In this document: piece by piece, positions 7,097-59,058 of the stretch
Position numbering within the stretch: position 1 is the stretch's first letter
Layout of the letters: the number at the start of each line of letters is the position of its first letter
NCBI GenBank assembly: GCA_902779305.1
Contig: CACZBD010000010.1
Location: 1-64,000, forward strand
Direction of reading: 5' to 3'
Length of the DNA: 64,000 nt
Source of the DNA: an uncultured Lachnospiraceae bacterium
GTDB taxonomy: Bacteria; Bacillota; Clostridia; Lachnospirales; Lachnospiraceae
The notes under the pieces: generated by a model
Told to the model about the DNA's origin: nothing
Seen by the model: only the letters and a program-made list of their open reading frames with translations
The model's database searches: none
Translations under genes and position numbers: made by a program

Positions 7097-7149
7097 ACCT
7101 GCTGTTAAGATAGATCATAAATCTTTTATGAGGAAAAGGAGGAAGAAAT

Positions 7150-7716: not shown

Positions 7717-9234
7717 TCACTCTTTCAACAGATAGAGATTGCCGGAATTGTTGGAACAGATGCAATCATATTCCCGGTCAACGATCTCATAAAGAAACGG
7801 AATCTCACCCTCGAAGTTGTCTCCCACAACGAGCCACTTCGGGGGTGTTTGCGTCAGATAGTCCCTAAGCTCGTCGCCGATCTCAGGGTCGAGATCGATA
7901 AAGAACTGCAGATTGACCTGATAGGGATTGCATGGCAGGATCTGGTTGGCTTCAAACCAGATCATGTCCATGGAAAAGGAAAAGACCTGATCCCGCTCCT
8001 TTTCGGGGATCAGCGTGGCCAGTTCCCTGGCGGCCTGATAATCCTCCGAATACCACATGTTATCCCTCCCGTCGGCAAAGGTCTTGATCGTGTCGATCGC
8101 AGGGTGCGCATAGTAGTAGAACAGGATCACGATGAGCGCAAGCAGGAGAAACTGACGGATGTTCGCAAAGAGAACGAGCGGATCGTAGAGCCTTAAGAAG
8201 ACAGCAAAAGCGAACACAAACACCGGGAAGACCGTTGTGAAGTAATAGATGAACGGAACCCCTAAGTGCAGCAGGATATAAGTGATTGCCGAAACCGACA
8301 GCAGCAGGATGCGCACCGGCCGTTCGATCCTTTTGGGGTGGAAGATCGCCAGAAGGAAAGCAAATGTCGCGCCGAGAAGCTTTCTTTCCCATTCCAGGTT
8401 GAAAGGTTCGGAAAAATCAACCGAACGCTTGAAGGCGAATGAAAATACGCTGTAAAGCATGCGGGGAATGGCGTGATGATAACCGAAATAGAGAAAGACC
8501 GGACAGACGGCGATCAGAACGCCCAGCAGGGAAAAAGCAAGATATTTCAATAACGAACGGTATTTTTTCTCAAGCAGATCGTTCAGGAAAACGGCGATGA
8601 CGACCCCGCCGATCGGAGCAGCCACGGTGATCTTGGAAAAGGCGATGATCCCGAAACAGACACCGGTGATGACGGGAACAAAAGGAGGCAGCGCGGACAG
8701 ATCCAGACGGATCCCGGTACCGGACACCGACTTGTTTTCCGGAACGGCTTCTTCTGTATGATCTGCAGGAAGCAGGGCATATTTCAGCGTCAGGAACAGG
8801 ACCAGAAGGTTCAGCGGCAGCATGTATTCTTCCAGCGTATTGCCGCCCCAGAGCGTTGCAACATGCATGAACAATACCATGAGCAGGATCGAAACGGCTT
8901 TCAGTCTCGAAACGAACAGCCTTGCCAGTTCATACATCAGGATCAGGGACGCGGTAAAAAACGGGATCTCCAGGATAAAGACGCCCGTGCGGTCATTATG
9001 GAGGAACTGCCCCAAAGCCTGTAAAAAGAAAAAATAAGGGCCTTTTAAGTCGAAAAAATCAAGATACGGGACCCAGCCTTTGGTGATGCCTCTTCCCGCC
9101 ATCGAGAAAAAGGAAGCGTCACAACCGTACCAATGCGGATAGAGCGGGCTTTCCCAAAGGGAGAAAGCAAGCAGAAACAGAACAGCTATAACGAAAAAAA
9201 CTGGGTAAATGATGAAACGTTCGCGTTTTGTCAT
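7717..9234 (-). CDS. GT-C type multi-pass membrane protein
   Basis: A 505-residue integral membrane protein with about ten or more hydrophobic helices. Its first extracytoplasmic loop carries DASFF and DFFDLKGPYFFF, a layout like GT39/ArnT-type glycosyltransferases that use polyprenyl-phosphate sugars. The C-terminal 120 residues are soluble. The start at 9234 (MTKRERF) has AAGGA 9 bases upstream; the open frame upstream of it lacks a ribosome site and would run past the promoter. Donor and acceptor are unknown. Confidence 0.7.
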   Translation of the reverse strand: MTKRERFIIYPVFFVIAVLFLLAFSLWESPLYPHWYGCDASFFSMAGRGITKGWVPYLDFFDLKGPYFFFLQALGQFLHNDRTGVFILEIPFFTASLILMYELARLFVSRLKAVSILLMVLFMHVATLWGGNTLEEYMLPLNLLVLFLTLKYALLPADHTEEAVPENKSVSGTGIRLDLSALPPFVPVITGVCFGIIAFSKITVAAPIGGVVIAVFLNDLLEKKYRSLLKYLAFSLLGVLIAVCPVFLYFGYHHAIPRMLYSVFSFAFKRSVDFSEPFNLEWERKLLGATFAFLLAIFHPKRIERPVRILLLSVSAITYILLHLGVPFIYYFTTVFPVFVFAFAVFLRLYDPLVLFANIRQFLLLALIVILFYYYAHPAIDTIKTFADGRDNMWYSEDYQAARELATLIPEKERDQVFSFSMDMIWFEANQILPCNPYQVNLQFFIDLDPEIGDELRDYLTQTPPKWLVVGDNFEGEIPFLYEIVDREYDCICSNNSGNLYLLKE

Positions 9235-44517: not shown

Positions 44518-46116
44518 ATGAGTCGATACAGGATCACAATACTGGCTGCACTGATCCTTTCGCTGGCCGCCATCGGAGGCCTCCTTTATTGTGACAGGAT
44601 CACTGCAGGCATGAAGGAAAAACCGACGCTGATGATCTCGCCGGAAGAAATGGATACGCTGCAGCATGTCCGTTTCTGCCTTCCGAAGGATGAAAATCCC
44701 ACACTGACATCGGACCTTTTATCGACCGTTTTCAATGAGGACGAACTGATGCAGTATCTGATCGTGCCGAAGGATTTTCCTGCCTTTGGCGTTGTCTGCT
44801 ATGCCGTGGACGATCAGGACAACCTGCTGAACCGCTATGTGATCGATTTTTCCGAAACAGGCGAGTATGCCGTTGGCTTAAGACGCCTGTATCTGAAACA
44901 GACTTCCCTCCCGGTCATGACCATAGAGATCGGACAGGATTCCGAGAGCTTTGAAAAAATGATCTCCTCCGAAAAAGGAATCGAATGCACCGGCGATTTT
45001 GCACTGTATGTGGATAAAGAGCAGGCGCATAAGAAGCACTGGATCGAGGAGGTGCACAGCAGGGATGTCAGCAGGGATACCCTCGGCTCCGTAACGATCC
45101 GCGGAAGGGGAAATTCGACCTGGGATTTTGCAGACAAGAAGTCGTTTACGCTTGTTTTTGAAAAAGCGGTCTATATGCTCGGTCTCGGGAAGCATAAAAA
45201 ATGGAATCTGATCAGCAATTCCCAGGACCAGACGCTTTTGAACAATGAGGTCTTCCTCAAAATGGCGGCTGACATGGGGGTTGCGTTTGAACCAAAGTGT
45301 GAACAGGTCACGCTGTATGTGGACGGAAACTATCAGGGCGTTTACCTGCTGACCACAAAAGTGAATGTCGATAAGGACCGCGTGGACTTAAGAGGCGGGG
45401 ATTTCTTTATCAACTGGGGCGGAACCGGTGCCGCGCAGCCGTTATTTTATGAGTCAGAAACCTGGCTGGATGACGGCAGCGATTATCAGGATCCGTTTGT
45501 CGATCTCATCTGGCCCGAAGAAGCCTCGGATGCTGAAAAGTCACTGGCCGCTTCCACCGTGCAGGCCTTTATTTCTTCCATCGAGGATCCCGCAGATCCT
45601 TCCTATACGGATCATATGGACCTTGACAGCATGGTGCGTTACTACTGGGCGCAGGAGATCTGCATGAATTATGATGCGGCGTTCCGCTCGACCTACTCCT
45701 ATTACAAGGCAGACACCGGAAAGATCTACATGGGTCCGGTCTGGGATCTGGATCTGTGCCTTGGCTGGAATGCAGACAAATGCGGGGCGGATTTTACAGA
45801 TCCTGCGGGGTGGAAACTGCGCGGCATGAGCTGGTATGTTCCGCTCTTTGCCAGAAAAGACTTTGTCGATGCGATCAGGGATGCCTACTGGAACGGCGGG
45901 GTCCGTGAGACCATGTTTGATGCGCTTGCAAGGTATGAGGAGCGGACCTTTGAAATGCGTGAGGACGGACAGCTTAATTACCGGCGTTGGAACGGTGACC
46001 GTCCGGCACTTGGGATCCGCTACGGAGAGGATTACGTCAGCCAGACAGCTGGCAGGCTGCAGTTCTTTAAGGACCGTGTATCCTGGATCGATGCCGAAAT
46101 GTCAAAGGACCGGTAG
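44518..46116 (+). CDS. CotH kinase family protein, membrane anchored
   Basis: A 532-residue protein with an N-terminal signal anchor (about 5-25) and an extracytoplasmic CotH kinase-like domain. TIRGRGNSTWDFADKKSF (about 193), VTLYVDGNYQGVYLLTTKV (about 262) and GPVWDLDLCLGWN (about 407) match the family. Bacillus CotH phosphorylates spore coat proteins; in other bacteria these proteins often act in the envelope and go with VTC and DUF4956 genes. AAGGAAA lies before the ATG. Confidence 0.88.
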   Translation: MSRYRITILAALILSLAAIGGLLYCDRITAGMKEKPTLMISPEEMDTLQHVRFCLPKDENPTLTSDLLSTVFNEDELMQYLIVPKDFPAFGVVCYAVDDQDNLLNRYVIDFSETGEYAVGLRRLYLKQTSLPVMTIEIGQDSESFEKMISSEKGIECTGDFALYVDKEQAHKKHWIEEVHSRDVSRDTLGSVTIRGRGNSTWDFADKKSFTLVFEKAVYMLGLGKHKKWNLISNSQDQTLLNNEVFLKMAADMGVAFEPKCEQVTLYVDGNYQGVYLLTTKVNVDKDRVDLRGGDFFINWGGTGAAQPLFYESETWLDDGSDYQDPFVDLIWPEEASDAEKSLAASTVQAFISSIEDPADPSYTDHMDLDSMVRYYWAQEICMNYDAAFRSTYSYYKADTGKIYMGPVWDLDLCLGWNADKCGADFTDPAGWKLRGMSWYVPLFARKDFVDAIRDAYWNGGVRETMFDALARYEERTFEMREDGQLNYRRWNGDRPALGIRYGEDYVSQTAGRLQFFKDRVSWIDAEMSKDR

Positions 46117-46138
46117 CGTGGAGTTCCTGGCATGGCTA

Positions 46139-46147
46139 TGGTATAAT
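46139..46147 (+). promoter_or_regulatory. Extended -10 promoter of the polysaccharide cluster
   Basis: TGG followed by a perfect TATAAT (46142-46147), with no convincing -35. The start would be near 46154, giving a leader of about 30 bases. It is the only clear promoter seen before the long run of plus-strand polysaccharide genes. Confidence 0.55.
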
Positions 46148-46182
46148 ATGATGGTTGAAAATCATCGGATGTAGTGGGAAAT

Positions 46183-47334
46183 ATGAAGATCGTGCAGTTT
46201 ATTGACAGCATGTATACGGGCGGCGCGGAGACTTCCGTCTGCAACACCGCGTTGGAGATGAAACGGCAGGGGCTAGATATCGCAGTTCTTTGTTTTTCGA
46301 TCCGGCGGGGAACTGCTAATGAGAAACGGCTTGATCGCGCGGAAATTCCAACTTATTATTTGGCAGAGGAATGTCTGAAGAAGTTGCGTTTGCAAAAATG
46401 CATCCATTCCGCGATCCGCTATCTTGTCCAGATCCTGCTATCTGTGTTTATGTTTCGAGACTACATTAAACGTGAGCAACCGGATGTGCTGCATATGCAT
46501 TTGGATGCGCTCTTGTTTTACCCGTTTCTTCCACGCAAAGTAAAAAGAAAGTGCGCTGCCTTCTGGACGGTGCATAGTGATCCTGATATCTTTTTAAAGA
46601 TCGGATTTTTACATGTGTTCAGAAGAGTGATCCTAAGGCACAATCCGAACATGGGGATTCTTGTTCTGAACGGGGAAGGAATGGAAAAACTTTCGAGTTA
46701 CAACCTTTCCAATTCTGTCGGGATCATACGCAACGGAACTGACCTGACCGCATATCGGGCCGTTGCGAAACAAAAGGCAGAAACAAGGAAGAAGCTGCAT
46801 ATAACGGAAACTGCGCTTGTGATCGGACATATTGGCAGATTCGGTGAGGGTGAAGCGGTCAAAAACCAGTCCTTTTTGGTAAAGATTTTTCAAAAGATCC
46901 TTTTGCAAAGACCTGATGCGTGTCTGATGCTTGTTGGCGGAGGAAAACCGTCAGAAGGATTATCCCGAATGATCGAAAAAATGAGCGCTGACGGAAAGGC
47001 CCTTGTTTTGACTGACAGGTCCGACGTTCCGTTGCTGTTGGGCGCAATGGATGTTTTTGTGCTTCCGTCTGTATATGAGGGGTTCCCAATGACGCTTATT
47101 GAGGCGCAGGCGGCCGGACTTTTTTGTGTTGTTTCAGATTCCGTTACGAGGGAGACTGCGTTAACGGATCGTGTATGCTATTTACCCCTTGAGGATGACG
47201 CCGAAAAGTGGGCTGACGCTGTCTTACATGGCGGAAATTATGAAAAGCCGGTAGGAAAACTGGAAGACTATGATATCAAAAATATAGCAGACAGACTGGT
47301 TATGCTGTATCGGGATAAATGTGCCACAGATTGA
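46183..47334 (+). CDS. GT4 family glycosyltransferase
   Basis: A 383-residue GT-B enzyme. The N-terminal SMYTGGAETSVCNTALEM (about 8) is the acceptor-side loop, and the C-terminal YEGFPMTLIEAQAAGL (about 298) is the donor-binding E-x7-E motif of family 4. It transfers a hexose or related sugar during polysaccharide assembly. ATG 46183 is preferred over 46174 because of the usual MKIVQF start. It is the first gene after the cluster promoter. Confidence 0.9.
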   Translation: MKIVQFIDSMYTGGAETSVCNTALEMKRQGLDIAVLCFSIRRGTANEKRLDRAEIPTYYLAEECLKKLRLQKCIHSAIRYLVQILLSVFMFRDYIKREQPDVLHMHLDALLFYPFLPRKVKRKCAAFWTVHSDPDIFLKIGFLHVFRRVILRHNPNMGILVLNGEGMEKLSSYNLSNSVGIIRNGTDLTAYRAVAKQKAETRKKLHITETALVIGHIGRFGEGEAVKNQSFLVKIFQKILLQRPDACLMLVGGGKPSEGLSRMIEKMSADGKALVLTDRSDVPLLLGAMDVFVLPSVYEGFPMTLIEAQAAGLFCVVSDSVTRETALTDRVCYLPLEDDAEKWADAVLHGGNYEKPVGKLEDYDIKNIADRLVMLYRDKCATD

Positions 47335-47356
47335 CTTGTGAGTGGAGAATTGGCGG

Positions 47357-48442
47357 ATGATGAAAGAATTGACATTTAGCAGGATCCTTGTTACGGGAGC
47401 TGCCGGTTTTATCGGCGCGAATCTTGCGGAATACCTTTTGAGAAAATGCCCGGGCATTACGGTTATCGGTGTTGACAATCTGAATGACTACTATGATGTA
47501 TCTTTAAAAGAATACAGGTTGAAAAGAATTTTGGAAGCGGCTAGACAGAATCCTTCTTCAGATTGGTGTTTTGAGAAGGGTTCGATCGCAAACCAGGATT
47601 TTATCAGGAATATCTTTGAAAAGCACCAGCCCCAGATCGTTGTCAATCTGGCGGCACAGGCAGGCGTGCGGTATTCCATAGACCATCCGGATGTCTATAT
47701 GGAGTCTAATATGATGGGGTTCTTTGAGATCTTGGAGGCTTGCCGTCACTCCTATGATAATGGTGATCCGGGCGTGCAGCATCTGATCTATGCTTCTTCT
47801 TCCTCTGTATACGGTAATAATCGGAAAATTCCCTATTCTACGGATGACAATGTAGATCATCCGGTTTCTTTGTACGCTGCCACAAAAAAGTCTAATGAAT
47901 TACTTGCACACTGTTATTCAAAACTGTACAACATCCCGACAACCGGACTGCGTTTTTTCACGGTTTACGGACCGGCAGGCAGACCGGATATGGCGTATTT
48001 CAGTTTTGCTGACAAGCTGAGGAACGGAGAAAAGATCCGGATTTTCAACTATGGAAACTGTAAACGGGATTTCACCTATATAGATGATATTATTGAGGGT
48101 ATTTTCAGAGTGATGCATGTTGCGCCGGAAAAGAAAACAGGGGAGGACGGACTTCCGATCGCGCCGTATAACCTGTATAACATCGGGAACAGTCATCCGG
48201 AGAATTTGTTGGATTTTGTTGAAATCCTGCAACAGGAGTTGGTGCGCGCTGAGGTACTGCCGGAAAGCTATGATTTTGATGCACACAAGGAACTGGTCGC
48301 AATGCAGCCGGGAGACGTTGAGGTGACCTATGCGGACACGGAGCCACTCAAAAGAGACTTCGATTTTGTTCCCCGGACGCCGCTCAGAGAAGGACTTCGA
48401 AAGTTTGCGCAATGGTATTCAGACTACTATTCAGATCACTAA
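47357..48442 (+). CDS. NAD-dependent epimerase, UDP-glucuronate 4-epimerase-like
   Basis: A 361-residue short-chain dehydrogenase-type epimerase. It has VTGAAGFIGANLAEYL (about 13), NDYYDVSLKEYRL (about 42, as in CapI/UDP-GlcA epimerases), ASSSSVYGNN (about 145) and catalytic YAATKK (about 174). It would supply UDP-galacturonate to the glycan; UDP-glucose or other epimerase activity cannot be excluded. The start at 47357 has TGGAG 9 bases upstream; a GTG at 47342 is possible. Confidence 0.85.
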   Translation: MMKELTFSRILVTGAAGFIGANLAEYLLRKCPGITVIGVDNLNDYYDVSLKEYRLKRILEAARQNPSSDWCFEKGSIANQDFIRNIFEKHQPQIVVNLAAQAGVRYSIDHPDVYMESNMMGFFEILEACRHSYDNGDPGVQHLIYASSSSVYGNNRKIPYSTDDNVDHPVSLYAATKKSNELLAHCYSKLYNIPTTGLRFFTVYGPAGRPDMAYFSFADKLRNGEKIRIFNYGNCKRDFTYIDDIIEGIFRVMHVAPEKKTGEDGLPIAPYNLYNIGNSHPENLLDFVEILQQELVRAEVLPESYDFDAHKELVAMQPGDVEVTYADTEPLKRDFDFVPRTPLREGLRKFAQWYSDYYSDH

Positions 48443-48465
48443 AATATTTGAAAAGAGGATTGTCC

Positions 48466-49086
48466 ATGCAAAATAACCGGATAAAAGAAAAATCAAGAAA
48501 TTATTTTAATGAGCTGGCGCAGGCGGAAAATGGATATGACATTCCTGAGCCGAAAAAGTGTTATCCGTACATTATTGACGTTATTGAAAAGATTGGCGAT
48601 CGGAAGAGTAAGATCCTGGATATTGGATGTGGCGAGGGTGATGTATTGCTACAGCTTTCCGAGATGGGATATACCAGCCTGTACGGGGTAGACTTGTCCG
48701 ATGAGGCGGTAAAAAGAGCAAAGGAATTGAATCCGAAGATTAACTTTACTGTTGGGGATGTTGAGCAGCTCCCGTTTGATGATGAGGAATTTGATGTGAT
48801 CGTTTGTTCACACAGTTTTCACCATTATCCCGACCCTGCACTTGCAATGAGTGAGATGTACAGGGCCCTACAAAGAAACGGTCGTTTGCTTCTGGTCGAG
48901 AATGATACCTTTTTTCTGAGGCGGATCTGTATTAATATCAGTCTGATGCTGCGTCATCATCCTGCAGGAGACATTCGCTGGTATTCGCGAAACAAACTTT
49001 GCAGGTTGGCAGAAAAAGCAGGTTTCTCTTATGCACACTGTGAAACGATCACGAATCGTTCTGCAATGCTCGAAGCGGTTCGGTAA
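48466..49086 (+). CDS. Class I SAM-dependent methyltransferase
   Basis: A 206-residue methyltransferase with motif I ILDIGCGEGDVLLQL (about 46), the acidic loop GVDLSD and the post-motif VGDVEQLPFDDEEFDVIVCSH (in part; about 85) of the UbiE/methyltransferase-11 group. Its place between an epimerase and a GT8 suggests sugar O-methylation, which is inference. The start at 48466 follows AGAGGA; the upstream open frame overlaps the epimerase end. Confidence 0.8.
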   Translation: MQNNRIKEKSRNYFNELAQAENGYDIPEPKKCYPYIIDVIEKIGDRKSKILDIGCGEGDVLLQLSEMGYTSLYGVDLSDEAVKRAKELNPKINFTVGDVEQLPFDDEEFDVIVCSHSFHHYPDPALAMSEMYRALQRNGRLLLVENDTFFLRRICINISLMLRHHPAGDIRWYSRNKLCRLAEKAGFSYAHCETITNRSAMLEAVR

Positions 49087-49104
49087 ATAAAGGAGTTGAC
49101 ACAT

Positions 49105-50106
49105 ATGGAGCATTTACATGTCATGTATGCAGCTGACGAGAACTACGCCCCGTTTCTTGGGGTATCTGTTTTTTCTCTGCTTGAAAATAATCGCGACATA
49201 GAAAAAATCACCATCTATGCGGTGCTGGACCGTGTGTCTGACGACAATAAATCCCGGCTGACCAAAATGGTGGATTCTTTCGGACGCCGGCTGGTGATCG
49301 TGAATGCTGTCGAGTTTAATAAAACATTGAAGGAACTGGGCGTCCCGAAATACAGAGGATCCTACACAACTCACTTTCGTAAATTTTTTCATTTGTTTAT
49401 GGGGGATGAGGTAAAAAGGTTTTTGTATATCGATTCGGACTCAATTGTTCCCGGAAACCTGAAGCCATTGTTGGACCTGGACATGGGGGATTGTGTCGGC
49501 GCAGTGGTTTTGGATGCGCTTGCCAATAAGTATAAGTTATTACTCGGTTTCAGACCGGGAGAAACATACTTTAATGCCGGCGTTACCTTGATTGACGTTG
49601 ATAACTGGAAGGCAAACCGATGTACGGAGCGCCTGATAGAACATATCACGACAAAGAGAGCCGCTTATTGTAACCCGGATCAGGATCTGTTCAATATCCT
49701 TCTTCGCGGAAAAACGATGGTAATACCATGTCAATATAATTTTGTACCGGTTCACCGCGCATATTCCGACAGGGCCTATGCCAAGAATTACGGATTTGAA
49801 AACTATTACTCCCGCGAAGATGTTGTGTATGCGCGGGAGAATCCGGCGATCATCCACGCCTACCGTTTTCTTGGGGAATTTCCCTGGCATAAAGGGAATC
49901 TGCACCCTGACACACCGCTGTTTGACGAATATCTTCGCAGATCCCCCTGGGCAGACTATGAGAAGAAGCCATCCGGTGTCGGATTTGTGTTTAGGTGCGA
50001 AAAAATGCTATATCGGATCCTGCCAAGAGACTGGTTCCTGACCATATTCCGGATCATCACAGACAGAATGACCTACCGGAAAGAAATGAAATTAAGGAAA
50101 TCCTGA
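49105..50106 (+). CDS. GT8 family glycosyltransferase
   Basis: A 333-residue GT-A enzyme of the galactosyl/glucosyltransferase 8 family. MYAADENYAPFLGVSVFSLL lies at the N-terminus, and LYIDSDSIVPGNL (about 105) carries the metal-binding DxD. FNAGVTLIDVDNWK (about 157) and the HPDTPLFDEYLRRSPW end are also typical. ATG 49105 has AAGGAG 9 bases upstream. Confidence 0.9.
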   Translation: MEHLHVMYAADENYAPFLGVSVFSLLENNRDIEKITIYAVLDRVSDDNKSRLTKMVDSFGRRLVIVNAVEFNKTLKELGVPKYRGSYTTHFRKFFHLFMGDEVKRFLYIDSDSIVPGNLKPLLDLDMGDCVGAVVLDALANKYKLLLGFRPGETYFNAGVTLIDVDNWKANRCTERLIEHITTKRAAYCNPDQDLFNILLRGKTMVIPCQYNFVPVHRAYSDRAYAKNYGFENYYSREDVVYARENPAIIHAYRFLGEFPWHKGNLHPDTPLFDEYLRRSPWADYEKKPSGVGFVFRCEKMLYRILPRDWFLTIFRIITDRMTYRKEMKLRKS

Positions 50107-50153
50107 TGCCGGTTTAGGTGAAATGAACCGGAGTATGATTACCGGAGGAAGAA

Positions 50154-51272
50154 ATGAAAAAAATAATGGTTGTTTTTGGAACCAGACCAGAAGCCATCAA
50201 AATGTGTCCATTGGTTCTGGAATTAAAGAAAAGAAAGTGTTTCAGGACCGTTGTCTGCGTTACCGGACAGCACAGAGAAATGCTGCGGCAAGTGCTTAAT
50301 GCTTTTTCGATTGAGCCGGACTATGATTTGCAGATTATGAAGAAGCAACAAACATTATTTGATGTTACAACCGGTGTATTAACAGGGATACGGAGTGTTC
50401 TTGAGACGGAGAAGCCGGAAGTTGTTTTGGTCCACGGAGATACGAGTACTGCTTTTGTATCATCGCTGGCGGCATTCTATATGAACATTCCTGTTGGACA
50501 TGTCGAAGCTGGATTAAGGACATACGATCTTCAGGCACCTTACCCCGAAGAATTCAACCGTCAAGCCATCGATCTGGTTTCCGAGTACTATTTTGCGCCG
50601 ACAGAAACGGCGAAGCAGAATCTGATTGCTGAACAAAAGGATGCCGCTAAGATTTTTGTGACGGGAAATACCGTAATCGATGCGTTGAAAACAACTGTCA
50701 GAGATGATTATCAAAATCAGCATCTGGATTGGGCATGCGATTCAAAACTGATTCTTTTGACGGCGCACAGAAGAGAAAATCTGGGCGAGCCGATGAGAAA
50801 CATGTTTAGAGCGATCAAACGCGTCTGTGATGAGCATATAGATGTCAAAGTCCTTTACCCTATCCATATGAATCCTTATGTCCGTAGGATTGCGGACGAG
50901 GAATTGAGGAATTGCGACAGGATCAGGCTGATAGAACCTTTGGATGTCCTTGATTTTCACAATTTCATGGCCAAATGCTATTTTGTTCTTACAGACAGCG
51001 GAGGTATACAGGAAGAAGCCCCGGCGTTAGGAAAACCCGTGCTCGTGATGAGAGACACGACAGAGCGGCCGGAGGGGGTTGAAGCAGGAACACTGAAGCT
51101 GGTTGGAACAAGGGAAGAGAACGTTTATAAGGCTTTCAAAAAACTACTTGAGAATGATCACGAGTATGATAAAATGAGTAAAGCCGTGAATCCGTACGGA
51201 GATGGCACTGCATCTATACAGATTGCAGACATTCTGGAAAAATCACACGAGACAAAGACGGAGAAAACATGA
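50154..51272 (+). CDS. wecB: UDP-N-acetylglucosamine 2-epimerase
   Basis: A 372-residue non-hydrolysing epimerase converting UDP-GlcNAc to UDP-ManNAc. VVFGTRPEAIKMCPL at the start, VHGDTSTAF (about 83), HVEAGLRTYDLQAPYPEE (about 111), LLTAHRRENLG (about 202) and TDSGGIQEEAP (about 279) are the family blocks. It overlaps wecC by four bases; together they make UDP-ManNAcA for the surface glycan. Confidence 0.96.
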   Translation: MKKIMVVFGTRPEAIKMCPLVLELKKRKCFRTVVCVTGQHREMLRQVLNAFSIEPDYDLQIMKKQQTLFDVTTGVLTGIRSVLETEKPEVVLVHGDTSTAFVSSLAAFYMNIPVGHVEAGLRTYDLQAPYPEEFNRQAIDLVSEYYFAPTETAKQNLIAEQKDAAKIFVTGNTVIDALKTTVRDDYQNQHLDWACDSKLILLTAHRRENLGEPMRNMFRAIKRVCDEHIDVKVLYPIHMNPYVRRIADEELRNCDRIRLIEPLDVLDFHNFMAKCYFVLTDSGGIQEEAPALGKPVLVMRDTTERPEGVEAGTLKLVGTREENVYKAFKKLLENDHEYDKMSKAVNPYGDGTASIQIADILEKSHETKTEKT

Positions 51273-52495
51273 AGATCAATGTAATTGGATTGGGATACAT
51301 CGGGTTGCCGACTGCACTCAGCATGGCGGCAAACGGATTAAATGTCATCGGAACAGATTTAAAGCAGGATATTCTGGATACGATCAAAAAGGGTAAGATG
51401 ACATTTCAAGAGAAGGGGATGGATGAACTGCTGTCAAAAGCAAGGGAGTCCGGTAACCTGTCATTAAGCGATAGGTGTGTGGAAGCTGATGTCTATATCA
51501 TTTCCGTTCCCACACCGTATATTAAGATCAGCAAGAAAATTGATTCCAAATATGTGGAGAAAGCGGTCCGGGATGTTTTATCCATCTGCCCGGACGGATC
51601 CGTGATCGCAATTGAGTCAACCGTTTCTCCGGGAACGATCGATGATGTGGTCAGACCTGTTTTGGAAGAGAATGAAAATGAATCCGGAAAAAAAATCCAT
51701 ATTGCGCACGTGCCGGAGAGAATCATTCCGGGGAATATGCTTTATGAACTCAGAAACAACAGCCGGACTATAGGCGTTGATGATCCTTCGGTCGGAGAAA
51801 TGTTGAAGGAAGTATACGGTTCTTTCTGCATGGGTCAGATGATCGTTACAGATATCAAGACAGCAGAGATGACGAAGGTTATAGAAAATACTTATCGTGA
51901 TATCAACATCGCGTTTGCAAATGAACTGGCAAAGATCTGCAGACGGGACAATATGGATGTTTACGAGGTGATCCGAGTTGCCAATATGCATCCGCGTGTA
52001 AACATTCTGTCTCCGGGCCCGGGTGTAGGCGGGCACTGCATTTCCGTAGATCCGTGGTTTCTGGTTGGTGATTACCCGGATATCGTGAATATTATCCGCC
52101 ATGCACGATTGGTAAATGATGAGCAGCCAAGATATGTTTTGGAACGGATCAGCGAGATCATGCAGGAGAATTCCATCCAAAAGATTGAGGAAGTTGGTCT
52201 TTACGGAATGACCTATAAAGAAAATGTTGATGACACCAGAGAATCTCCGACACTGCAGTTATTGGACTATATGAAACAATACGCCGCCAAGGGGATAAAA
52301 GTTTACGATCCGTATATCACATACAACATGGTGCCGGATCAGTATCAGAATTTCGACAGTTTTCTGAACGATGTAAAAATGATTGTGGTCATGGTGGCCC
52401 ATGATCATATCATCAATAACTGTGCGTCATTGAAAGGCAAAGTTGTTTTTGATACCAGAAACTGCCTTCATGATATAGAAACATACAAATTGTAG
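51269..52495 (+). CDS. wecC: UDP-N-acetyl-D-mannosamine dehydrogenase
   Basis: A 408-residue UDP-sugar dehydrogenase oxidising UDP-ManNAc to UDP-ManNAcA with NAD. It has VIGLGYIGLPTALSMA (about 4), the TVSPGTIDDV block (about 117), NTYRDINIAFANELA (about 210), and the catalytic cysteine in SPGPGVGGHCISVDPWF (about 248). It is coupled to wecB. The same family also includes UDP-glucose and other UDP-sugar dehydrogenases, but the pairing with WecB supports this role. Confidence 0.94.
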   Translation: MKINVIGLGYIGLPTALSMAANGLNVIGTDLKQDILDTIKKGKMTFQEKGMDELLSKARESGNLSLSDRCVEADVYIISVPTPYIKISKKIDSKYVEKAVRDVLSICPDGSVIAIESTVSPGTIDDVVRPVLEENENESGKKIHIAHVPERIIPGNMLYELRNNSRTIGVDDPSVGEMLKEVYGSFCMGQMIVTDIKTAEMTKVIENTYRDINIAFANELAKICRRDNMDVYEVIRVANMHPRVNILSPGPGVGGHCISVDPWFLVGDYPDIVNIIRHARLVNDEQPRYVLERISEIMQENSIQKIEEVGLYGMTYKENVDDTRESPTLQLLDYMKQYAAKGIKVYDPYITYNMVPDQYQNFDSFLNDVKMIVVMVAHDHIINNCASLKGKVVFDTRNCLHDIETYKL

Positions 52496-52524
52496 AAGCC
52501 TGATGCTCGGATGAGGATAATGAT

Positions 52525-53478
52525 ATGAAGACCATCAGTTTCATGATCCCAACCTATAATGAAGTCGAGAATGCGGCTGCCATGAGCAAAGCCGTTATTG
52601 AAGAGGTTCAGAAGAACCTTCCCGGCTACGACTATGAGATCGTGTTTATCGATAACTGCTCCACGGATGGCACGCGTGACGTGATCCGAAAGCTTTGCGA
52701 AGAGGATCCGAAGATCAAAGCCATCTTGAACGTGACCAATTTCGGCCAGTTCAATTCCCCTTTTTACGGGATCTGCCAGACAACGGGAGACTGCACGATC
52801 TGTATTGCGGCTGATTTTCAGGAACCTGTGAGCCTGATCCCGACGCTGGTGCACAAGTGGGAAGAAGGACATAAGGTGGTACTCGGCATCAAGTCGACCA
52901 GCAAGGAAAACGGCCTGATCTATTTCTTGAGGAGCTGTTATTACAAGATCATCCGCAATATGTCTTCCGTGAAGATGATCGAGCATTTTAGCGGATACGG
53001 CCTGTATGACAGGACATTTGTTGCGCTTCTTCGGGAACTCGATGATCCGATCCCGTTTCTTAGAGGGATCGTTGCCGAGTACGGGGAAGGCTTCAACATG
53101 ACGGAAGTGGAATTCACGCAGGAAAAGCGCCGCGCGGGCAAAAGCTCCAACAATTTCTACAGCCTGTACGATGCAGCCATGCTGAGTTTTACCAGTTATA
53201 CCAAGGTCGGCTTAAGACTGGCCACGCTGATCGGTTTTATCGCGGGCGTGCTCAGCTTTATCGTTGCCATCGTCTATCTGGTGTTGAAATTGGTGTATTG
53301 GGATACGTTTTCCGCAGGCTATGCGCCGATGGCGATCGGCGTCTTTATGCTCGGATCGCTGCAGCTGTTCTTTATCGGTTTTCTCGGGGAATATGTGCTG
53401 AACATCAATACCCGTGTGATCAGAAGACCGGTTGTGGTGGAAGAGGAGCGGATCAATTTTAAGGAACCGAAAGAGTAA
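52525..53478 (+). CDS. GT2 glycosyltransferase with two C-terminal helices (GtrB-like)
   Basis: A 317-residue enzyme. It has ISFMIPTYNEVENAA, FIDNCSTDGTRDVI (about 44), IAADFQEPVSLIPTL (about 94) and FTQEKRRAGKSSNNFYSLYD (about 197), followed by two membrane helices (about 228-255 and 268-290). It resembles polyprenyl-phosphate glycosyltransferases. It lies 5 bp before the adenylating enzyme, so it may prepare the lipid-linked sugar that is acylated by the following dlt-like genes; this is inferred. Confidence 0.88.
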   Translation: MKTISFMIPTYNEVENAAAMSKAVIEEVQKNLPGYDYEIVFIDNCSTDGTRDVIRKLCEEDPKIKAILNVTNFGQFNSPFYGICQTTGDCTICIAADFQEPVSLIPTLVHKWEEGHKVVLGIKSTSKENGLIYFLRSCYYKIIRNMSSVKMIEHFSGYGLYDRTFVALLRELDDPIPFLRGIVAEYGEGFNMTEVEFTQEKRRAGKSSNNFYSLYDAAMLSFTSYTKVGLRLATLIGFIAGVLSFIVAIVYLVLKLVYWDTFSAGYAPMAIGVFMLGSLQLFFIGFLGEYVLNINTRVIRRPVVVEEERINFKEPKE

Positions 53479-53483
53479 CGGAT

Positions 53484-54992
53484 ATGGTACAGAGAACGAT
53501 CATTGATTATGTAAAAGATGCGGCTAAGACCTGCCCGGATAAATGCGCGTATTTCGACGAATCCGTGCGCCTGACCTACGGAAGGCTTGATACGATTGCA
53601 AGAAGCATCGCGAGCAGACTGATCGCGACACTGAATGTTACAAACCGCCCGGTGGCGGTCTATATGGAAAAATCACCCATGGCGGTTGCCGCTTTCTTCG
53701 GGACGGCATATTCCGGGAATTTCTATTCTCCCATTGATACGGGCATGCCGGATTACCGCCTGAAACTGGTCATGGAAAACTTAAAACCGGTCGGGATCAT
53801 TACGGATGCCTCGCATTATGATGTGGCAAGAACTTACTGCGCGCACGTTTTCCTGATCGAAGAATTCGGGGATGAAGAGATCAACGACGAGGCGATCGAG
53901 GAACGGCTTTCAAAGGCGCTGGATACCGATCCGCTTTATGTTCTGTACACATCGGGATCCACCGGCGTTCCAAAGGGCGTTGTTGTGTCCCATGCGTCTC
54001 TCATCGACTATATCGACGAATTCTGTGCTGCCGTTCCCATCAAAGAGGACGATATCGTTGCCAATCAGGCGCCGTTCTATTTTGATGCGTCCCTGATCGA
54101 TATCTACTGCACGCTGCATGAAAAGGCTACGATGGGGATCGTGCCGCTGCCTTTCTTTTCCGTACCGTTAAAGATCCTGCAGTACCTCTGTGACCATAAG
54201 ATCACCTTCATCCGCTGGGTTCCCTCGGCATTAAAGATGATCTCGACTTTCAAGGGGTTTTCGACCATGAAGCCGTCGTCATTAAGGACCGTAGTATTCG
54301 GCGCCGAGGCGATGCCGGTCAAATGTTATAATTACTGGTATGAAAATCTGAAGGATCAGGCAACTTTTATCCAGATCTACGGGCCCACCGAGATCACGGG
54401 CGTCTGCACCTATTATGTCTGCGACAGGACTTACGGGGAAGACGAGACGATCCCGATCGGGAAAGCTTTTCACAATACTTCCGTATTCCTTCTGGACGAA
54501 GACAACAAACTGGTCCGCAGAAAAGATGTGGCCGGGGAAATCTGCGTGAAGGGGACCTGCCTGGCTTTGGGCTATTTTAATGCGCCGGATAAGACCGCGG
54601 AGGTTTTTGTACAGAATCCGCTGAATCCCTATTATCCGGAACGGATCTACCGCACGGGCGATCTGGCCAGATATGACGCTGAAGGCAACCTGGTCTTCAT
54701 CAGCCGCAAGGATTACCAGATCAAGCATATGGGGCATCGGATCGAGCTTGGCGAGATCGAAGCCTGTGCCTCCATCCTGCCGGGGATCCGCAGCGCTTAC
54801 TGCGTGCACGACAAGAGCAAAGACAAGATCATCATGTTTTATGAATCCGATACCGTCGATGACAAGGTGCTTACCGAGGAACTGAAGAAGCGTCTGGTCA
54901 GATATATGGTGCCCAATGAGGTCAGAAAACTGGAACAGATGCCGATGCTTAAGAACGGCAAAGTAGACAGAATGAAACTGAAGGAGATGTAA
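53484..54992 (+). CDS. DltA-like amino acid adenylating enzyme
   Basis: A 502-residue AMP-forming synthetase of stand-alone adenylation domain size, as DltA. Core motifs: YTSGSTGVPKGVVVSH (about 154, P-loop), FYFDASLIDIY (about 198, with Asp201, which in alpha-amino acid A domains holds the amino group), IYGPTEITG (about 296), YRTGDLARYD (about 390) and the C-terminal NGKVD with Lys493. It would activate an amino acid and load it on the carrier protein encoded two bases later. The downstream aminomutase suggests a beta-amino acid rather than D-alanine. Confidence 0.88.
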   Translation: MVQRTIIDYVKDAAKTCPDKCAYFDESVRLTYGRLDTIARSIASRLIATLNVTNRPVAVYMEKSPMAVAAFFGTAYSGNFYSPIDTGMPDYRLKLVMENLKPVGIITDASHYDVARTYCAHVFLIEEFGDEEINDEAIEERLSKALDTDPLYVLYTSGSTGVPKGVVVSHASLIDYIDEFCAAVPIKEDDIVANQAPFYFDASLIDIYCTLHEKATMGIVPLPFFSVPLKILQYLCDHKITFIRWVPSALKMISTFKGFSTMKPSSLRTVVFGAEAMPVKCYNYWYENLKDQATFIQIYGPTEITGVCTYYVCDRTYGEDETIPIGKAFHNTSVFLLDEDNKLVRRKDVAGEICVKGTCLALGYFNAPDKTAEVFVQNPLNPYYPERIYRTGDLARYDAEGNLVFISRKDYQIKHMGHRIELGEIEACASILPGIRSAYCVHDKSKDKIIMFYESDTVDDKVLTEELKKRLVRYMVPNEVRKLEQMPMLKNGKVDRMKLKEM

Positions 54993-54993
54993 G

Positions 54994-55221
54994 ATGGACG
55001 AATTGAGAGAGATCCTGGAGGGGATCCATCCGGAAGTGGATTATGACACGGAAACCGGCCTGATCGACAAGAGGATCTTTGATTCTTTTGATGTGATCAC
55101 ACTGGTCGGTGAGCTGGTGGATACCTTTGATGTGGAGATCACTGCCGAACAGATGATCCCGGAAAACTTTAATTCCATGGAAGCGATCCGGAACCTGATC
55201 GAAAGGCTTTCTGACGAATAA
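54994..55221 (+). CDS. Acyl carrier protein, DltC-like
   Basis: A 75-residue four-helix carrier protein. FDSFDVITLVGELVDTFDVEI has the attachment serine (Ser31) in a DSF context, rather than DSL, and is followed by the acidic helix II. The serine would carry the phosphopantetheine arm holding the aminoacyl group. The start is one base after the adenylating gene, and the stop overlaps the start of the MBOAT gene. DltC or a similar aminoacyl carrier is the best match. Confidence 0.88.
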   Translation: MDELREILEGIHPEVDYDTETGLIDKRIFDSFDVITLVGELVDTFDVEITAEQMIPENFNSMEAIRNLIERLSDE

Positions 55222-56816
55222 TGTCACTGATATCTGTTGAATTTCTGTTTTTCTGTGCTTTTGTCCTTTTGCTGTATTACCTTGTGAAAGACAGATACCG
55301 CTGGATCGTGCTTCTCCTGTCCAGTCTGGTATTTTATTGCCTTGCGGGACCAAAGTATGTGCTCTATCTGTTGTTCAGCGCGACATCCGTCTATACGGGG
55401 GCGCGTCTGATCGATCGGATGAACGATACGAGGGATGCGTACCTTTCGGAGCATAAGGACGGCCTGAACAGAGAGGAAAAGAAAGCTTATAAGGCATCGG
55501 TCAAAAAGAAGCAGAAGCGGATCCTGTTTTTGTGTGTTCTGGCTAATGTGCTGGTATTGTTTACACTCAAATACCTTGACTTCGGGATCGCTTACTTTAA
55601 CTATTACAGGCTGCTGATTACCGGCAATACCAACCTGGTCCCGCAGCCGGGACTGATCCTGCCGCTCGGGATCTCGTTCTATACATTCCAGAGTCTCGGT
55701 TATGTCATCGATGTGTATTACGGCAAGGTAAAGAGCGAACGGAATTATTTCCGCTTTCTGCTCTTTATCAGCTTTTTCCCGCAGGTCGTGCAGGGACCGA
55801 TCTCCAGATTTTCAGCCCTTCAGCAGGAACTGTTTAGCGAAAAGCGCTTTGAGATGGAACGGATCACCTCGGGGCTGTATCGGATCTTATGGGGGCTTTT
55901 CAAGAAACTGATCATTGCGGACAGGCTGTCTTCTTATGTCGCAAGATCCGCTGCGTTCCGTATGGATTATAAAGGCCCTTACCTGCTGCTATGCATCTTT
56001 TTCTATGCATTTCAGATCTACGGTGATTTTTCCGGCGGCATCGATGTTGCGATCGGTGTGGCGGAGCTTTTCGGGATCAGACTTACCGAAAACTTCGAGC
56101 GGCCGTTCTTTTCCAAGAGCATCGCGGAATACTGGAGAAGATGGCATATCACGCTGGGTACCTGGTTCCGGGATTATATCTTCTATCCGCTGTCCGTGAA
56201 CAAGGGGATCTTAAACCTTGGCAAGTGGTGCAAAAAGCACCTGGGAGAAGCAGTCGGGAAGCGGGTTCCGGTTTATCTGCCGATGATCGCCGTCTGGGCG
56301 CTGACAGGCATGTGGCACGGCTCCGAGAGCAAATTCATTGTCTGGGGACTGTTAAACTGTACATTTCTGATCCTGGGGACCGAATTCGAGCCGCTGTCCA
56401 AACGGATCATGGAGAAACTGTCCCTGCGTGAGGATATGCTCATCGTCAAACTCTACCGGATCTTTAAGACCTTCTGGCTGATGGCCTTCCTGCGTGTCTT
56501 CGACTTTGTGAAGACCCCGAAAGACGGTTTTTATCTGATGGCGGATGTGTTCAAGAGGTGGGACAGCTTTGATCTGAACGAGATTTATACGACACTGCTT
56601 TTGCCAAAGGAAGAACTGATCGTTGCATTGATCGCGATCGCGGTCCTGGCGGCGGTTTCCACGATTCAGAGAAAAGGCTCCATCCGTGCAAAGATCCTTA
56701 CAAAAAACGCATGGATCCAGTATGCAGGGCTGATCGGGCTGGCTGCGGTTGTTCTGATCTTTGGCAGTTACGGACTCGGGTATGATGCGCAAAGCTTCAT
56801 ATACATGAAATTTTAA
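55221..56816 (+). CDS. MBOAT family O-acyltransferase, DltB/AlgI-like
   Basis: A 531-residue membrane protein with about ten or more helices. The MBOAT catalytic histidine is His366 in GMWHGSES, with the second conserved site around His309 (YWRRWHITLGTWFRDY). LGISFYTFQSLGYVID (about 150) and FFPQVVQGPISRF (about 190) are typical of DltB/AlgI. It would move the aminoacyl group from the carrier protein across the membrane to a glycan or teichoic-type acceptor. Confidence 0.93.
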   Translation: MSLISVEFLFFCAFVLLLYYLVKDRYRWIVLLLSSLVFYCLAGPKYVLYLLFSATSVYTGARLIDRMNDTRDAYLSEHKDGLNREEKKAYKASVKKKQKRILFLCVLANVLVLFTLKYLDFGIAYFNYYRLLITGNTNLVPQPGLILPLGISFYTFQSLGYVIDVYYGKVKSERNYFRFLLFISFFPQVVQGPISRFSALQQELFSEKRFEMERITSGLYRILWGLFKKLIIADRLSSYVARSAAFRMDYKGPYLLLCIFFYAFQIYGDFSGGIDVAIGVAELFGIRLTENFERPFFSKSIAEYWRRWHITLGTWFRDYIFYPLSVNKGILNLGKWCKKHLGEAVGKRVPVYLPMIAVWALTGMWHGSESKFIVWGLLNCTFLILGTEFEPLSKRIMEKLSLREDMLIVKLYRIFKTFWLMAFLRVFDFVKTPKDGFYLMADVFKRWDSFDLNEIYTTLLLPKEELIVALIAIAVLAAVSTIQRKGSIRAKILTKNAWIQYAGLIGLAAVVLIFGSYGLGYDAQSFIYMKF

Positions 56817-56819
56817 ACG

Positions 56820-57845
56820 ATGCAAAAGAAGAGCAGAAAAGCAAAACTGATCGCAAGAGGGTTTCTGATGGGCGCGCTGACACTGTTTTTGTTCTTAAGT
56901 GTCAACCTGCTGTTCATGCCCAAATATATCGAGGAAAACAAGGACGGACGGATCACGGAGGAATTCTACCGTGAAAAAATGAATTCCGACGTTCTCTTTG
57001 TCGGTTCTTCGACGGTTTTTTCGGCGATCAATCCGATCGTTTTATGGGAGGAATACGGGATCACGTCCTTTGACCGCGCCAATGCCTCACAGACCGCCTG
57101 GATCTCCTATTTCATGATCAAGGACGCGGTCGAGGTTTCGGACCCGGAAATGGTGGTTCTGGACCTGTCCTTCTTCCGCTATGAGGACGATTATGTGGAA
57201 GAGGCGGCAAACCGCAAGGCGATCGATGGGATGAGACCTTCGAAGACCAAGTTCCAGTGCATTCAGGCAGCAAGATCTCCCGATGAGACTTACATGGACT
57301 ATGTGTTTCCGATCGGCCGCTTCCATTCCAGATGGCAGTACCTGAATGCGGAAGACTGGAAATATTTGTATTATAAACCGACTGTGAGTTATAATGGATA
57401 CCTACCGTCATTCGATGTGGAGCCTGCACAGGCAGAGCGGAAAACGCAGGTGGAGGACGATTCGCTGATGTCCGATCGAAATGCGCTTTTCCTTGACAAC
57501 ATCATTACGATCTGCAGGGAAAACGATCTGCAGCTGCTGTTGATCAAGATCCCGTCCTATCAGCCAAAATGGGGGGAGATCTTTGACGGGGATGTCCGTA
57601 TGATCGCGGAAGATGCAGGCGTCCGGTATGTTGATTTTGACGAAGAAACCGAAGCGATCGGACTTGATTACAGTATTGATACGGATGATGGCGGAGGACA
57701 TCTCAATGATGCGGGTTCCGCCAAATTCACAAAATATTTAGGAAACTTCCTGGTTTCGAACTATCAGCTTCAAGATCACAGAGAGGATCCGGCTTATAGC
57801 AAGATCTGGAAAGAGAAATGTGAGAGATATCACAATGGAGAATAA
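56820..57845 (+). CDS. Membrane-anchored SGNH-like protein, DltD/AlgX role
   Basis: A 341-residue protein with one N-terminal membrane anchor (about 10-32) and an extracytoplasmic SGNH/GDSL-like domain. The nucleophile block is DVLFVGSSTVFSAINP (about 52), and the terminal Asp-x-x-His-like block is DDGGGHLNDAGS (about 289). It follows the MBOAT gene by three bases and takes the place of DltD or of AlgX/PatB-type final transferases. No clear ribosome site is seen, so translation is probably coupled. Confidence 0.8.
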   Translation: MQKKSRKAKLIARGFLMGALTLFLFLSVNLLFMPKYIEENKDGRITEEFYREKMNSDVLFVGSSTVFSAINPIVLWEEYGITSFDRANASQTAWISYFMIKDAVEVSDPEMVVLDLSFFRYEDDYVEEAANRKAIDGMRPSKTKFQCIQAARSPDETYMDYVFPIGRFHSRWQYLNAEDWKYLYYKPTVSYNGYLPSFDVEPAQAERKTQVEDDSLMSDRNALFLDNIITICRENDLQLLLIKIPSYQPKWGEIFDGDVRMIAEDAGVRYVDFDEETEAIGLDYSIDTDDGGGHLNDAGSAKFTKYLGNFLVSNYQLQDHREDPAYSKIWKEKCERYHNGE

Positions 57846-59058
57846 GAGAGAGATTTCCTTAGAGCGCGCCAAGGAACTTCATGAGGAGATCAAAGATTAC
57901 CTGGCTTTTAAAAACGAATACCTGATGGACATGAGCATGCGAAGGGATGTCATGAGCGAGCGTCACAAAAAGGACCTCCTCGAATACTTCGGTGCAACGG
58001 CCGAGGACTGGGATGACTGGCACTGGCAGCTGAAAAACAGGATCTCTTCGGCAGATGTTTTAAGACATTTCATGCATCTAAGCGATGAACAGGTGAGCCT
58101 GCTGGATCGGATCTCGACAAAATACCGCTGGGCAACCACACCGTATTACCTGTCGCTGATGGATTATGAGGATCTGAACTATCCGATCGACCGTATGGCG
58201 ATCCCGTCGAAGGACGAACTGGATGAAAGCGGTGAGCTCGACCCGATGCATGAGGAATATACGAATCCGGCGGCCTGCATCACCAGGCGCTATCCGAACC
58301 GCCTCATCATCAATGTGACCAGTTCGTGCGCGATGTTCTGCAGACACTGCCAAAGGAGACGCAGGATCGGGGAAACGGACCAGATCGAACCGAATCACCG
58401 GATCCAGGAAGCGATCGACTATATCAAGGCAACGGAAGAGATCCGGGATGTGCTGATCACCGGCGGGGACCCGCTGATGCTGCCGGATGAAGTGCTCGAA
58501 TCCATTATCGCGAGAGTCCGGGCGATCGAACATGTTGAGATCATCCGGATCGGCACAAGGCTTCCGGTAACGATGCCGCAGCGGATCACACCGCAGCTTA
58601 CCGCAATGCTTTCCAAATATCACCCGTTGTTTATCAACACGCAGTTCAATCATCCCGGCGAGATCACCAAGGAAGCTGCAAAAGCCTGCACGATGCTTGC
58701 GGATGCGGGGATCCCGCTCGGAAACCAGATGGTCTTCTTAAAGGGGATCAACAATGACAAATATATCGTGCAGCTTCTGAACGAGCAGCTGCTGAAGGTG
58801 CGTGTGAAGCCTTATTACATTTTCCATCCCAAGCAGGTTAAGGGCACAGGCCACTTTTCCATCAAGGTGGAAGAAGGGCTTGCAATCATGAAATATCTGC
58901 GCGGCCATACTTCGGGTCTCGCCATTCCGCAGTATATCCTGAACGCACCGGGCGGTCTCGGGAAGATCCCGCTGCTTCCGACCTATATTCAGGAAATGGA
59001 TGATACACATGTTATTTTACATACCTGGGAAGATAAAGAAGTGGAGATCGTGTATTGA
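57835..59058 (+). CDS. eam: Radical SAM aminomutase, probably glutamate 2,3-aminomutase
   Basis: A 407-residue KamA-family enzyme. The radical-SAM cluster cysteines are 165, 169 and 172 (CAMFCRHC), and the PLP lysine is Lys377 in APGGLGK. In lysine 2,3-aminomutase two aspartates bind the substrate side-chain amine (QCD and DAPGG contexts). Here they are Lys333 (FHPK) and Asn370 (LNAPGG), the pair described for glutamate 2,3-aminomutase. I therefore predict L-glutamate to beta-glutamate. The start lies inside the SGNH gene, and the stop overlaps the GT2 start, so it belongs to the dlt-like operon. Confidence 0.9.
   Translation: MENKREISLERAKELHEEIKDYLAFKNEYLMDMSMRRDVMSERHKKDLLEYFGATAEDWDDWHWQLKNRISSADVLRHFMHLSDEQVSLLDRISTKYRWATTPYYLSLMDYEDLNYPIDRMAIPSKDELDESGELDPMHEEYTNPAACITRRYPNRLIINVTSSCAMFCRHCQRRRRIGETDQIEPNHRIQEAIDYIKATEEIRDVLITGGDPLMLPDEVLESIIARVRAIEHVEIIRIGTRLPVTMPQRITPQLTAMLSKYHPLFINTQFNHPGEITKEAAKACTMLADAGIPLGNQMVFLKGINNDKYIVQLLNEQLLKVRVKPYYIFHPKQVKGTGHFSIKVEEGLAIMKYLRGHTSGLAIPQYILNAPGGLGKIPLLPTYIQEMDDTHVILHTWEDKEVEIVY

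Follow-up and report, generated by a model that had tools for sequence, protein, structure and literature searches.

Among the closest described systems to the operon analysed here is the Dlt pathway for teichoic acid D-alanylation (DltA, DltC, DltB, DltX, DltD), in which an adenylating (A) enzyme loads a carrier protein, and an MBOAT and an SGNH protein export the aminoacyl group (PMC12148441, in the part of it accessible). In the same part of that source, the acyl-shuttle motif FXYXXF lies on the microprotein DltX in the Dlt pathway; in the other MBOAT/SGNH systems, such as the O-acetyltransferases of the PatA/PatB and alginate type, it is at the C-terminus of the MBOAT itself. Those non-Dlt pathways are said to have no carrier protein, evidently owing to their use of acyl-CoA. 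Of known systems, the incednine macrolactam starter module comes nearest to an aminomutase that supplies an A enzyme and a free-standing carrier: the glutamate 2,3-aminomutase-type IdnL4 is encoded together with the A enzyme IdnL1 and its carrier, and IdnL4 activity was not seen in vitro (PMC11284099, from a partial text). The operon described here lies at 53484-59058 of a 64,000-nucleotide stretch (the window) of contig CACZBD010000010.1, from an uncultured Lachnospiraceae bacterium; it pairs a carrier protein with a shuttle-bearing MBOAT, and encodes its own glutamate 2,3-aminomutase-like enzyme (EAM), a radical SAM enzyme dependent on pyridoxal phosphate (PLP). It probably makes beta-glutamate (3-aminoglutarate) and attaches it to an extracellular polymer. 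The genes are as follows:

53484-54992, forward strand: stand-alone amino acid adenylating enzyme (A domain); AMP-binding 2.3e-68, TIGR01733 335.7 bits
54994-55221, forward strand: stand-alone acyl/aminoacyl carrier protein; predicted phosphopantetheine Ser31 (FDSFD), weak PP-binding_2
55221-56816, forward strand: MBOAT acyltransferase; Pfam MBOAT 6.5e-21, motifs WRRWHI and GMWHG, C-terminal FIYMKF
56820-57845, forward strand: SGNH-like protein; N-terminal hydrophobic helix, GSST block, D..GHLN block
57820-59058, forward strand: glutamate 2,3-aminomutase-like radical SAM/PLP enzyme (EAM), GTG start; Radical_SAM 2.5e-13 plus LAM_C, TIGR04368
59055-59768, forward strand: short GT2 glycosyltransferase, overlapping the EAM gene; start TTG 59055 or ATG 59058

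In the proposed pathway, EAM would convert L-glutamate to beta-glutamate, which the A enzyme would adenylate and load as a thioester onto the carrier, the likely donor. The MBOAT would then carry the beta-glutamyl group through the membrane onto its own Tyr528, in the C-terminal FIYMKF motif, from which the SGNH protein would take it to esterify an extracellular polymer. The genes, their motifs, their conserved linkage and the joint change of A pocket and EAM presence in one lineage are observed; the products, the substrate and this order of transfer are inferred. A sequence-only reading of the window had proposed five chained genes that make, activate, load and transfer beta-glutamate onto a glycan built by the flanking genes: all five genes were confirmed in place, with intergenic distances of +1, -1, +3 and -26 bases, and sequence comparison supports the core of the proposal, with the flanking glycan as target not supported. 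The block begins 5 bases 3' of a GT2 gene (52525-53478), and its end overlaps the next GT2 gene. The arrangement is beyond chance, because the same block is seen again in relatives with SGNH protein identity down to 39%.

Profile scans (Pfam, NCBIfam) covered 14 window genes. A classical dlt operon was rejected since the DltA, DltB and DltC cut-offs were missed: the A enzyme scored 260.5 of 559.85 on TIGR01734 and 268.1 of 476 on NF003417, the MBOAT 159.3 of 375 on TIGR04091 (LTA_dltB), and the carrier 22 of 68 on NF003464. The carrier matched Pfam PP-binding_2 at 7.7e-4, below cut-off, and its best NCBIfam match, also below cut-off, was AmcB, a carrier of cispentacin biosynthesis (29.2 of 80). 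The MBOAT aligns to the solved DltB, and its FIYMKF is an FXYXXF motif, which in the operon is fused to the MBOAT, unlike in Dlt, where it lies on DltX; F-x-Y-x-x-F was found at the MBOAT end in every EAM-positive row with its C-terminus read. No separate DltX microprotein was found in the operon, to which the search was limited and whose genes abut within 3 bases. The MBOAT His and SGNH Ser/Asp/His blocks are invariant alignment columns, and fixed patterns of these motifs went unmatched in some relatives. The SGNH protein had a weak Pfam match to Lipase_GDSL_2, below cut-off, and its predicted structure (mean predicted local distance difference test score, pLDDT, 73.5) had no Foldseek match at 0.001, the best E value being 1.7e-3, with TesA and PatB among the top, weak matches. 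By these membership tests the operon is not a Dlt system, nor is its aminomutase above the EAM cut-off; its most likely mode of action is nevertheless that of a Dlt system supplied by a glutamate aminomutase.

For the aminomutase, the best NCBIfam model was TIGR04368 (glutamate 2,3-aminomutase) at 601.2 bits, which is below the curated cut-off of 650 and 180 bits ahead of the next of the models listed, lysine aminomutase (420.7). The cut-off of 650 was exceeded in none of seven genomes (six of the genus and the window's own) and none of 14 control genomes. Aligned to the solved lysine 2,3-aminomutase 2A5H, EAM keeps the radical SAM motif CxxxCxxC (C170/C174/C177), has Lys382 at the place of the PLP-binding lysine, and carries K338 for D293 and N375 for D330, a Lys and Asn replacement that Ruzicka and Frey (2007) reportedly described as marking glutamate 2,3-aminomutases. 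Lys and Asn stand at the two places in 40 of 41 operon-type rows, the remaining row having a gap, and in 76 of 77 rows of other EAM-like proteins, and the D/D pair in 68 of 68 further KamA rows, counts that include duplicates, some genomes being in twice. The lead among the models and the two replaced residues argue for an aminomutase of the glutamate type, as had been proposed; a lysine or arginine aminomutase identity was rejected on the K/N residues. EAM is the sole KamA-like match in its own genome (E up to 0.001), and the EAMs of the operon group into a single clade (29 rows, SH-aLRT (Shimodaira-Hasegawa-like approximate likelihood-ratio test) support 99, quick tree).

The A enzyme passes the general amino-acid-adenylation model TIGR01733 (335.7 bits, cut-off 317.4), and its predicted structure (pLDDT 69.6, modest) matches A domains of nonribosomal peptide synthetases, DltA and the beta-amino-acid enzyme HitB. 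The substrate pocket was read from sequence motifs, and not from the model coordinates, at positions which we take to follow Stachelhaus/PheA numbering, anchored on short motifs, giving the code D-A-I-R-V-G-I-G-V (residues 201, 202, 205, 244, 271, 273, 298, 306 and 307). EAM-linked A enzymes share the pocket D-A-I-R-[IV]-G-I-G-[VI], the L007 and L008 fragments being without the first three positions (L-numbers denote fetched loci, that is, DNA stretches, and G-numbers genomes). Arg244, which is kept in the DAIR and DAVR pocket types, could bind a distal carboxylate. Specificity for D-alanine, which would have spoken against the sequence-only reading, appears disfavoured, given the missed DltA cut-offs and the different pocket; the pocket is unlike that of the DNLFLCLDA type, whose member L123 scores 324 of 476 on a DltA model. 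For comparison, VinN has been proposed to bind the substrate amine with Asp230 and the carboxylate with Ser299/Arg331 (PMC7756342, from a partial text).

EAM goes with the block throughout the operon clade. From a GTDB scan with EAM as query, 80 loci were kept. The 19 nearest loci (L002-L019 and L023; EAM 72-89% identical), all from Lachnospiraceae metagenome-assembled genomes (MAGs) and ruminant-derived where a source was named, carry the block as far as the stretch reaches, the L013 stretch holding a trpS-like gene and EAM only. The linkage holds over all fetched loci: among 30 distinct operon-clade EAMs, MBOAT and SGNH genes are on the same stretch in 29, a carrier in 27 and a close A enzyme in 23; the sole EAM without MBOAT and SGNH stops at a contig edge. 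Of the seven incomplete loci, L013/L155, L017, L104, L002 and L004 are cut by contig ends, with the close A enzyme on another contig of the same genome (G408, G404, G365, G411 and G428; the last two were matched to L002 and L004 by coordinates). Across 37 genomes of the genus, 31 have the close A enzyme, 29 the operon-type EAM (fragments in G426, G397 and G400), 27 both and four neither; G193, G399, G406 and G418 have A but no EAM found, and G398 and G430 have EAM but no close A found. Of 397 genomes sampled from the family, five contain EAM at 65% identity or above, each of them with the close A enzyme, and a further one, G193, has the close A enzyme only. One subgroup has a tryptophanyl-tRNA synthetase-like gene after SGNH and before EAM (L007:8874-9983, L011:8872-9987, L017, L018, L145, L147, L150, L154), the L011 copy passing TIGR00233. 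In one subgroup (L007:948-5011 and 7008-7781; L145), the A and carrier genes are separated by a pair of large genes (704 aa, HAD-like; 650 aa, weakly GH43-like), and an inositol monophosphatase gene lies between MBOAT and SGNH.

In three relatives without EAM (G193, G399 and G406), the A pocket reads D-A-V-R-I-G-N-G-V. Of 143 A positions invariant in 28 distinct EAM-positive enzymes, two are changed in all three, I205V and I298N, and both are among the seven invariant pocket positions (hypergeometric P 0.002, 28 rows), a value that is not a measure of repeated evolution, the pocket change being a single evolutionary event. A full-length rerun with 25 rows showed three changes at 146 A positions (I205V, I298N, E98D), two of them in the pocket (P 0.006), none at 24 carrier or 38 SGNH positions, and three at 110 MBOAT positions (V240I, I266L, F531I). 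In the A tree, the trio forms one clade (100/100) nested among EAM-positive enzymes and the EAM label changes twice; outgroup rooting needs one gain and one loss of EAM. L142, whose EAM status is not established, was left out of the 28-row set and labelled EAM-positive in the tree, and L103, L148, L149, L154 and L159 were counted as EAM-positive on the basis of an EAM on another contig of the same genome. The trio block occupies the same site as in many EAM-positive relatives (tyrS, block, with or without brkB, pheS, pheT; the brkB match is missing in L141), and genome completeness is 99% for G193 and G406 and 70% for G399. The altered pocket in relatives without EAM supports the sequence-only reading. 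Unlinked KamA homologues are present in G193 and G399 (L144:6659-7747 and L143:7460-8584), and were rejected as a replacement EAM: they match the arginine and lysine aminomutase models best, the glutamate model trailing by about 10-15 bits, all equivalog cut-offs are missed, and no KamA homologue was found in G406.

Related blocks occur in other Lachnospiraceae, with A enzymes that are 37-48% identical and with different pockets and neighbours. An A match at 1e-60 was found in 169 of 397 genomes, the window's own genome and the close A enzymes included. Pocket and neighbour were tallied for 124 distinct A loci, which exclude the window, L007, L008, L010, L015 and one duplicate (L157), and include 60 extra loci taken down the ranked A-match list, not at random; neighbour enzymes were counted anywhere on the fetched stretch. 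The 27 DAIR loci comprise 21 with EAM and six without (L154, L142, L149, L103, L148, L159), all six contig-cut and five with EAM elsewhere in the genome, and the three DAVR loci have no EAM, racemase or PLP neighbour. An Asp/Glu-family racemase accompanies 29 of 36 DAKC loci, with a PLP decarboxylase-like gene in two and neither in five. Such a PLP gene is found at 37 of 45 DVK..CN loci (none at eight), and one of 13 loci with other pockets has a PLP gene. Among these loci EAM is thus restricted to DAIR and the racemase to DAKC, and 18 of 21 EAM, 27 of 29 racemase and 40 of 40 PLP genes lie within 5.5 kb of the A gene (centre to centre). Of the neighbour enzymes scanned, two racemases score above threshold on both TIGR00035 (198 and 215; cut-off 93) and the model for cysteate racemase (199 and 209; cut-off 190), and four PLP proteins were nearest to TIGR03099 and lysA, below cut-off.

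The racemase gene is directly upstream of DAKC blocks at L106:10225-10938, L108:7515-8225, L114:7550-8269 and L116:7218-7934, and at L117:9265-10443 and L118:10069-11328, both DVK..CN blocks, a PLP decarboxylase/alanine-racemase-like gene lies between the A enzyme and the carrier. The DVK..CN PLP gene is reminiscent of the PLP decarboxylases VinO and BtrK, which act on carrier-bound amino acids (PMC7756342, partial text). TIGR03099, an exosortase A-associated PLP decarboxylase model, was among the best models for the DVK-pocket PLP protein, where the operon has EAM instead; the exosortase A-associated ligase model TIGR03098 is a distant match of the operon A enzyme, below cut-off, and judging by their names the two models belong to one exosortase-associated cluster type. 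In L257, L284, L286, L288 and L290, the related-block A pockets read SM[TLS]YLALDI, with Ser for the usual Asp at the amine-binding position, which perhaps points to a substrate lacking the alpha-amino group, unless the alignment is at fault. Pocket types probably correspond to clades, so the associations represent few independent events. With less confidence than for the operon itself, we favour the proposal that Lachnospiraceae own amino-acid-customised Dlt-like cassettes, of which the operon would be one member. In these, a conserved A-carrier-MBOAT-SGNH export machine would be joined by one or other substrate-making enzyme and a pocket to match, so that their surfaces would bear a non-proteinogenic aminoacyl-ester code. 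The cassette product would be beta-glutamate with the aminomutase and D-aspartate, D-glutamate or D-cysteate with the Asp/Glu-family racemase; the PLP decarboxylase-like enzyme would perhaps form an omega-amino acid while the substrate is carrier-bound.

The genes flanking the block change between relatives, and a flanking glycan was rejected on this ground as the conserved partner of the operon; the earlier proposal that the acceptor is the glycan built by these genes was not borne out, most of them not being conserved with the operon. L003 has the dGTPase gene (window 43064) immediately before the block, where in the window genes at 44518-53478 intervene; these include glycosyltransferases, epimerases and a UDP-ManNAc dehydrogenase-like gene, absent at that place in L003, and were named mostly from reading the sequence, only 44518, 46174 and 52525 having been scanned (44518 without a match). 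A small GT2 homologue is 3' of EAM in L002 and L003, and none was found there in L023. In many relatives the block is beside tyrS and pheST, and ABC transporter and GT11 genes are upstream in L010, L012 and L015.

Several observations weigh against an operon that makes and attaches beta-glutamate. Besides the EAM score below its curated cut-off and the pocket numbering, which is anchored on short motifs, EAM-like genes are common across the phylum (in 140 of 398 genomes, counting the window's own), and none of 46 distant EAM loci (40 phylum loci and six from the GTDB scan, some on short stretches) shows carrier, MBOAT or SGNH genes (tblastn 1e-4), an A domain being near EAM at one of the 46 (23% identity, some 5.5 kb away). 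L150 (G398) is a carrier-MBOAT-SGNH-EAM locus with no close A enzyme in the assembly or the next 7.5 kb, L018 (G430), which reaches a contig end, likewise has no close A enzyme found, G418 has an EAM-type pocket with no EAM found on a contig ending inside the MBOAT gene, and the G423 EAM holds one in-frame TGA. The EAM-less trio keeps the A-carrier-MBOAT-SGNH block, its pocket change counts as one event only, and the A pocket is not the sole thing that moved: F531I alters the last residue of the shuttle motif. Finally, most flanking glycan genes are not conserved with the operon, and so they point to no acceptor.

Some additional observations touch these subjects. The trio MBOATs (L099:9472-12131, L140, L141) end in FIYGNI, not in the FXYXXF shuttle motif. 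L021:9012-11212 (a Bacilli MAG) has a 59% identical EAM gene directly 3' of a gene for a TupA-like ATP-grasp protein, TupA being a teichuronopeptide protein, and this pair is perhaps another route attaching beta-glutamate. At L022:7354-12663 (a Clostridia MAG), the EAM gene is between dnaN-like and recF-like genes, beside dnaA.

Part of the evidence above would suit an alternative in which the amino acid attached by the block is a different one (such as L- or D-glutamate, or D-alanine) and EAM supplies beta-glutamate as a free osmolyte, the two being envelope or stress functions that share no more than their regulation. Beta-glutamate is established as a compatible solute (PMC1224877, in the part accessible), EAM-like genes are common without the block, and three relatives keep the block without EAM; against this, EAM accompanies the block throughout the operon clade, two of two (28 rows) or two of three (rerun) trio A changes are pocket positions, the A enzyme misses the DltA cut-offs, and related blocks carry other amino-acid enzymes according to pocket type, which leaves this alternative unlikely. 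That the aminomutase occurs mostly outside the operon, which the sequence-only reading had held would speak against it, is true at phylum scale only, and not within the operon clade.

Far less probable is a modification of beta-glutamate ahead of its transfer, in free form or bound to the carrier, such as decarboxylation to 3-aminobutyrate. In incednine biosynthesis the PLP enzyme IdnL3 decarboxylates beta-glutamate to 3-aminobutyrate, the IdnL1 substrate (PMC11284099, partial text), and a PLP decarboxylase-like gene is present in related Lachnospiraceae blocks, but no match to the related-block PLP protein was found in the EAM-positive loci searched (tblastn 1e-8), and Arg244 in the pocket would fit a substrate keeping its second carboxylate. 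A small secreted metabolite or lipid containing beta-glutamate, and not a polymer decoration, is equally improbable: it would suit the poorly conserved flanks, which point to no acceptor, and the use of A enzyme and stand-alone carrier modules to feed macrolactam assembly lines, but an MBOAT with FXYXXF and an SGNH partner is the arrangement of cell-envelope polymer acylation (PMC12148441, in the part accessible), the operon has MBOAT and SGNH where incednine has dipeptidyl transfer, and the scan of 14 window genes, to which the search was confined, found no polyketide synthase.

The reading we prefer, attachment of beta-glutamate to an extracellular polymer, has no counterpart among the open-licence literature matches listed, where no system attaching beta-glutamate to a surface polymer was found, an absence that is weak evidence. 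If it is true, a surface polymer of bacteria would be covalently decorated with a beta-amino acid, which none of those matches describes, and glutamate 2,3-aminomutase would gain a physiological role in addition to supplying the free compound and precursors of antibiotics. With both a free carboxylate and an amine, a beta-glutamyl ester would be zwitterionic, in contrast to the cationic D-alanine ester, and its effect would therefore not be a simple neutralisation of charge. Given the link between pocket and neighbouring enzyme, the surface chemistry of uncultured Lachnospiraceae from rumen and gut would be open to prediction and to direct testing, and, if the cassette family is real, gut and rumen cell surfaces would bear an unrecognised aminoacyl-ester code, readable from the pocket sequence.

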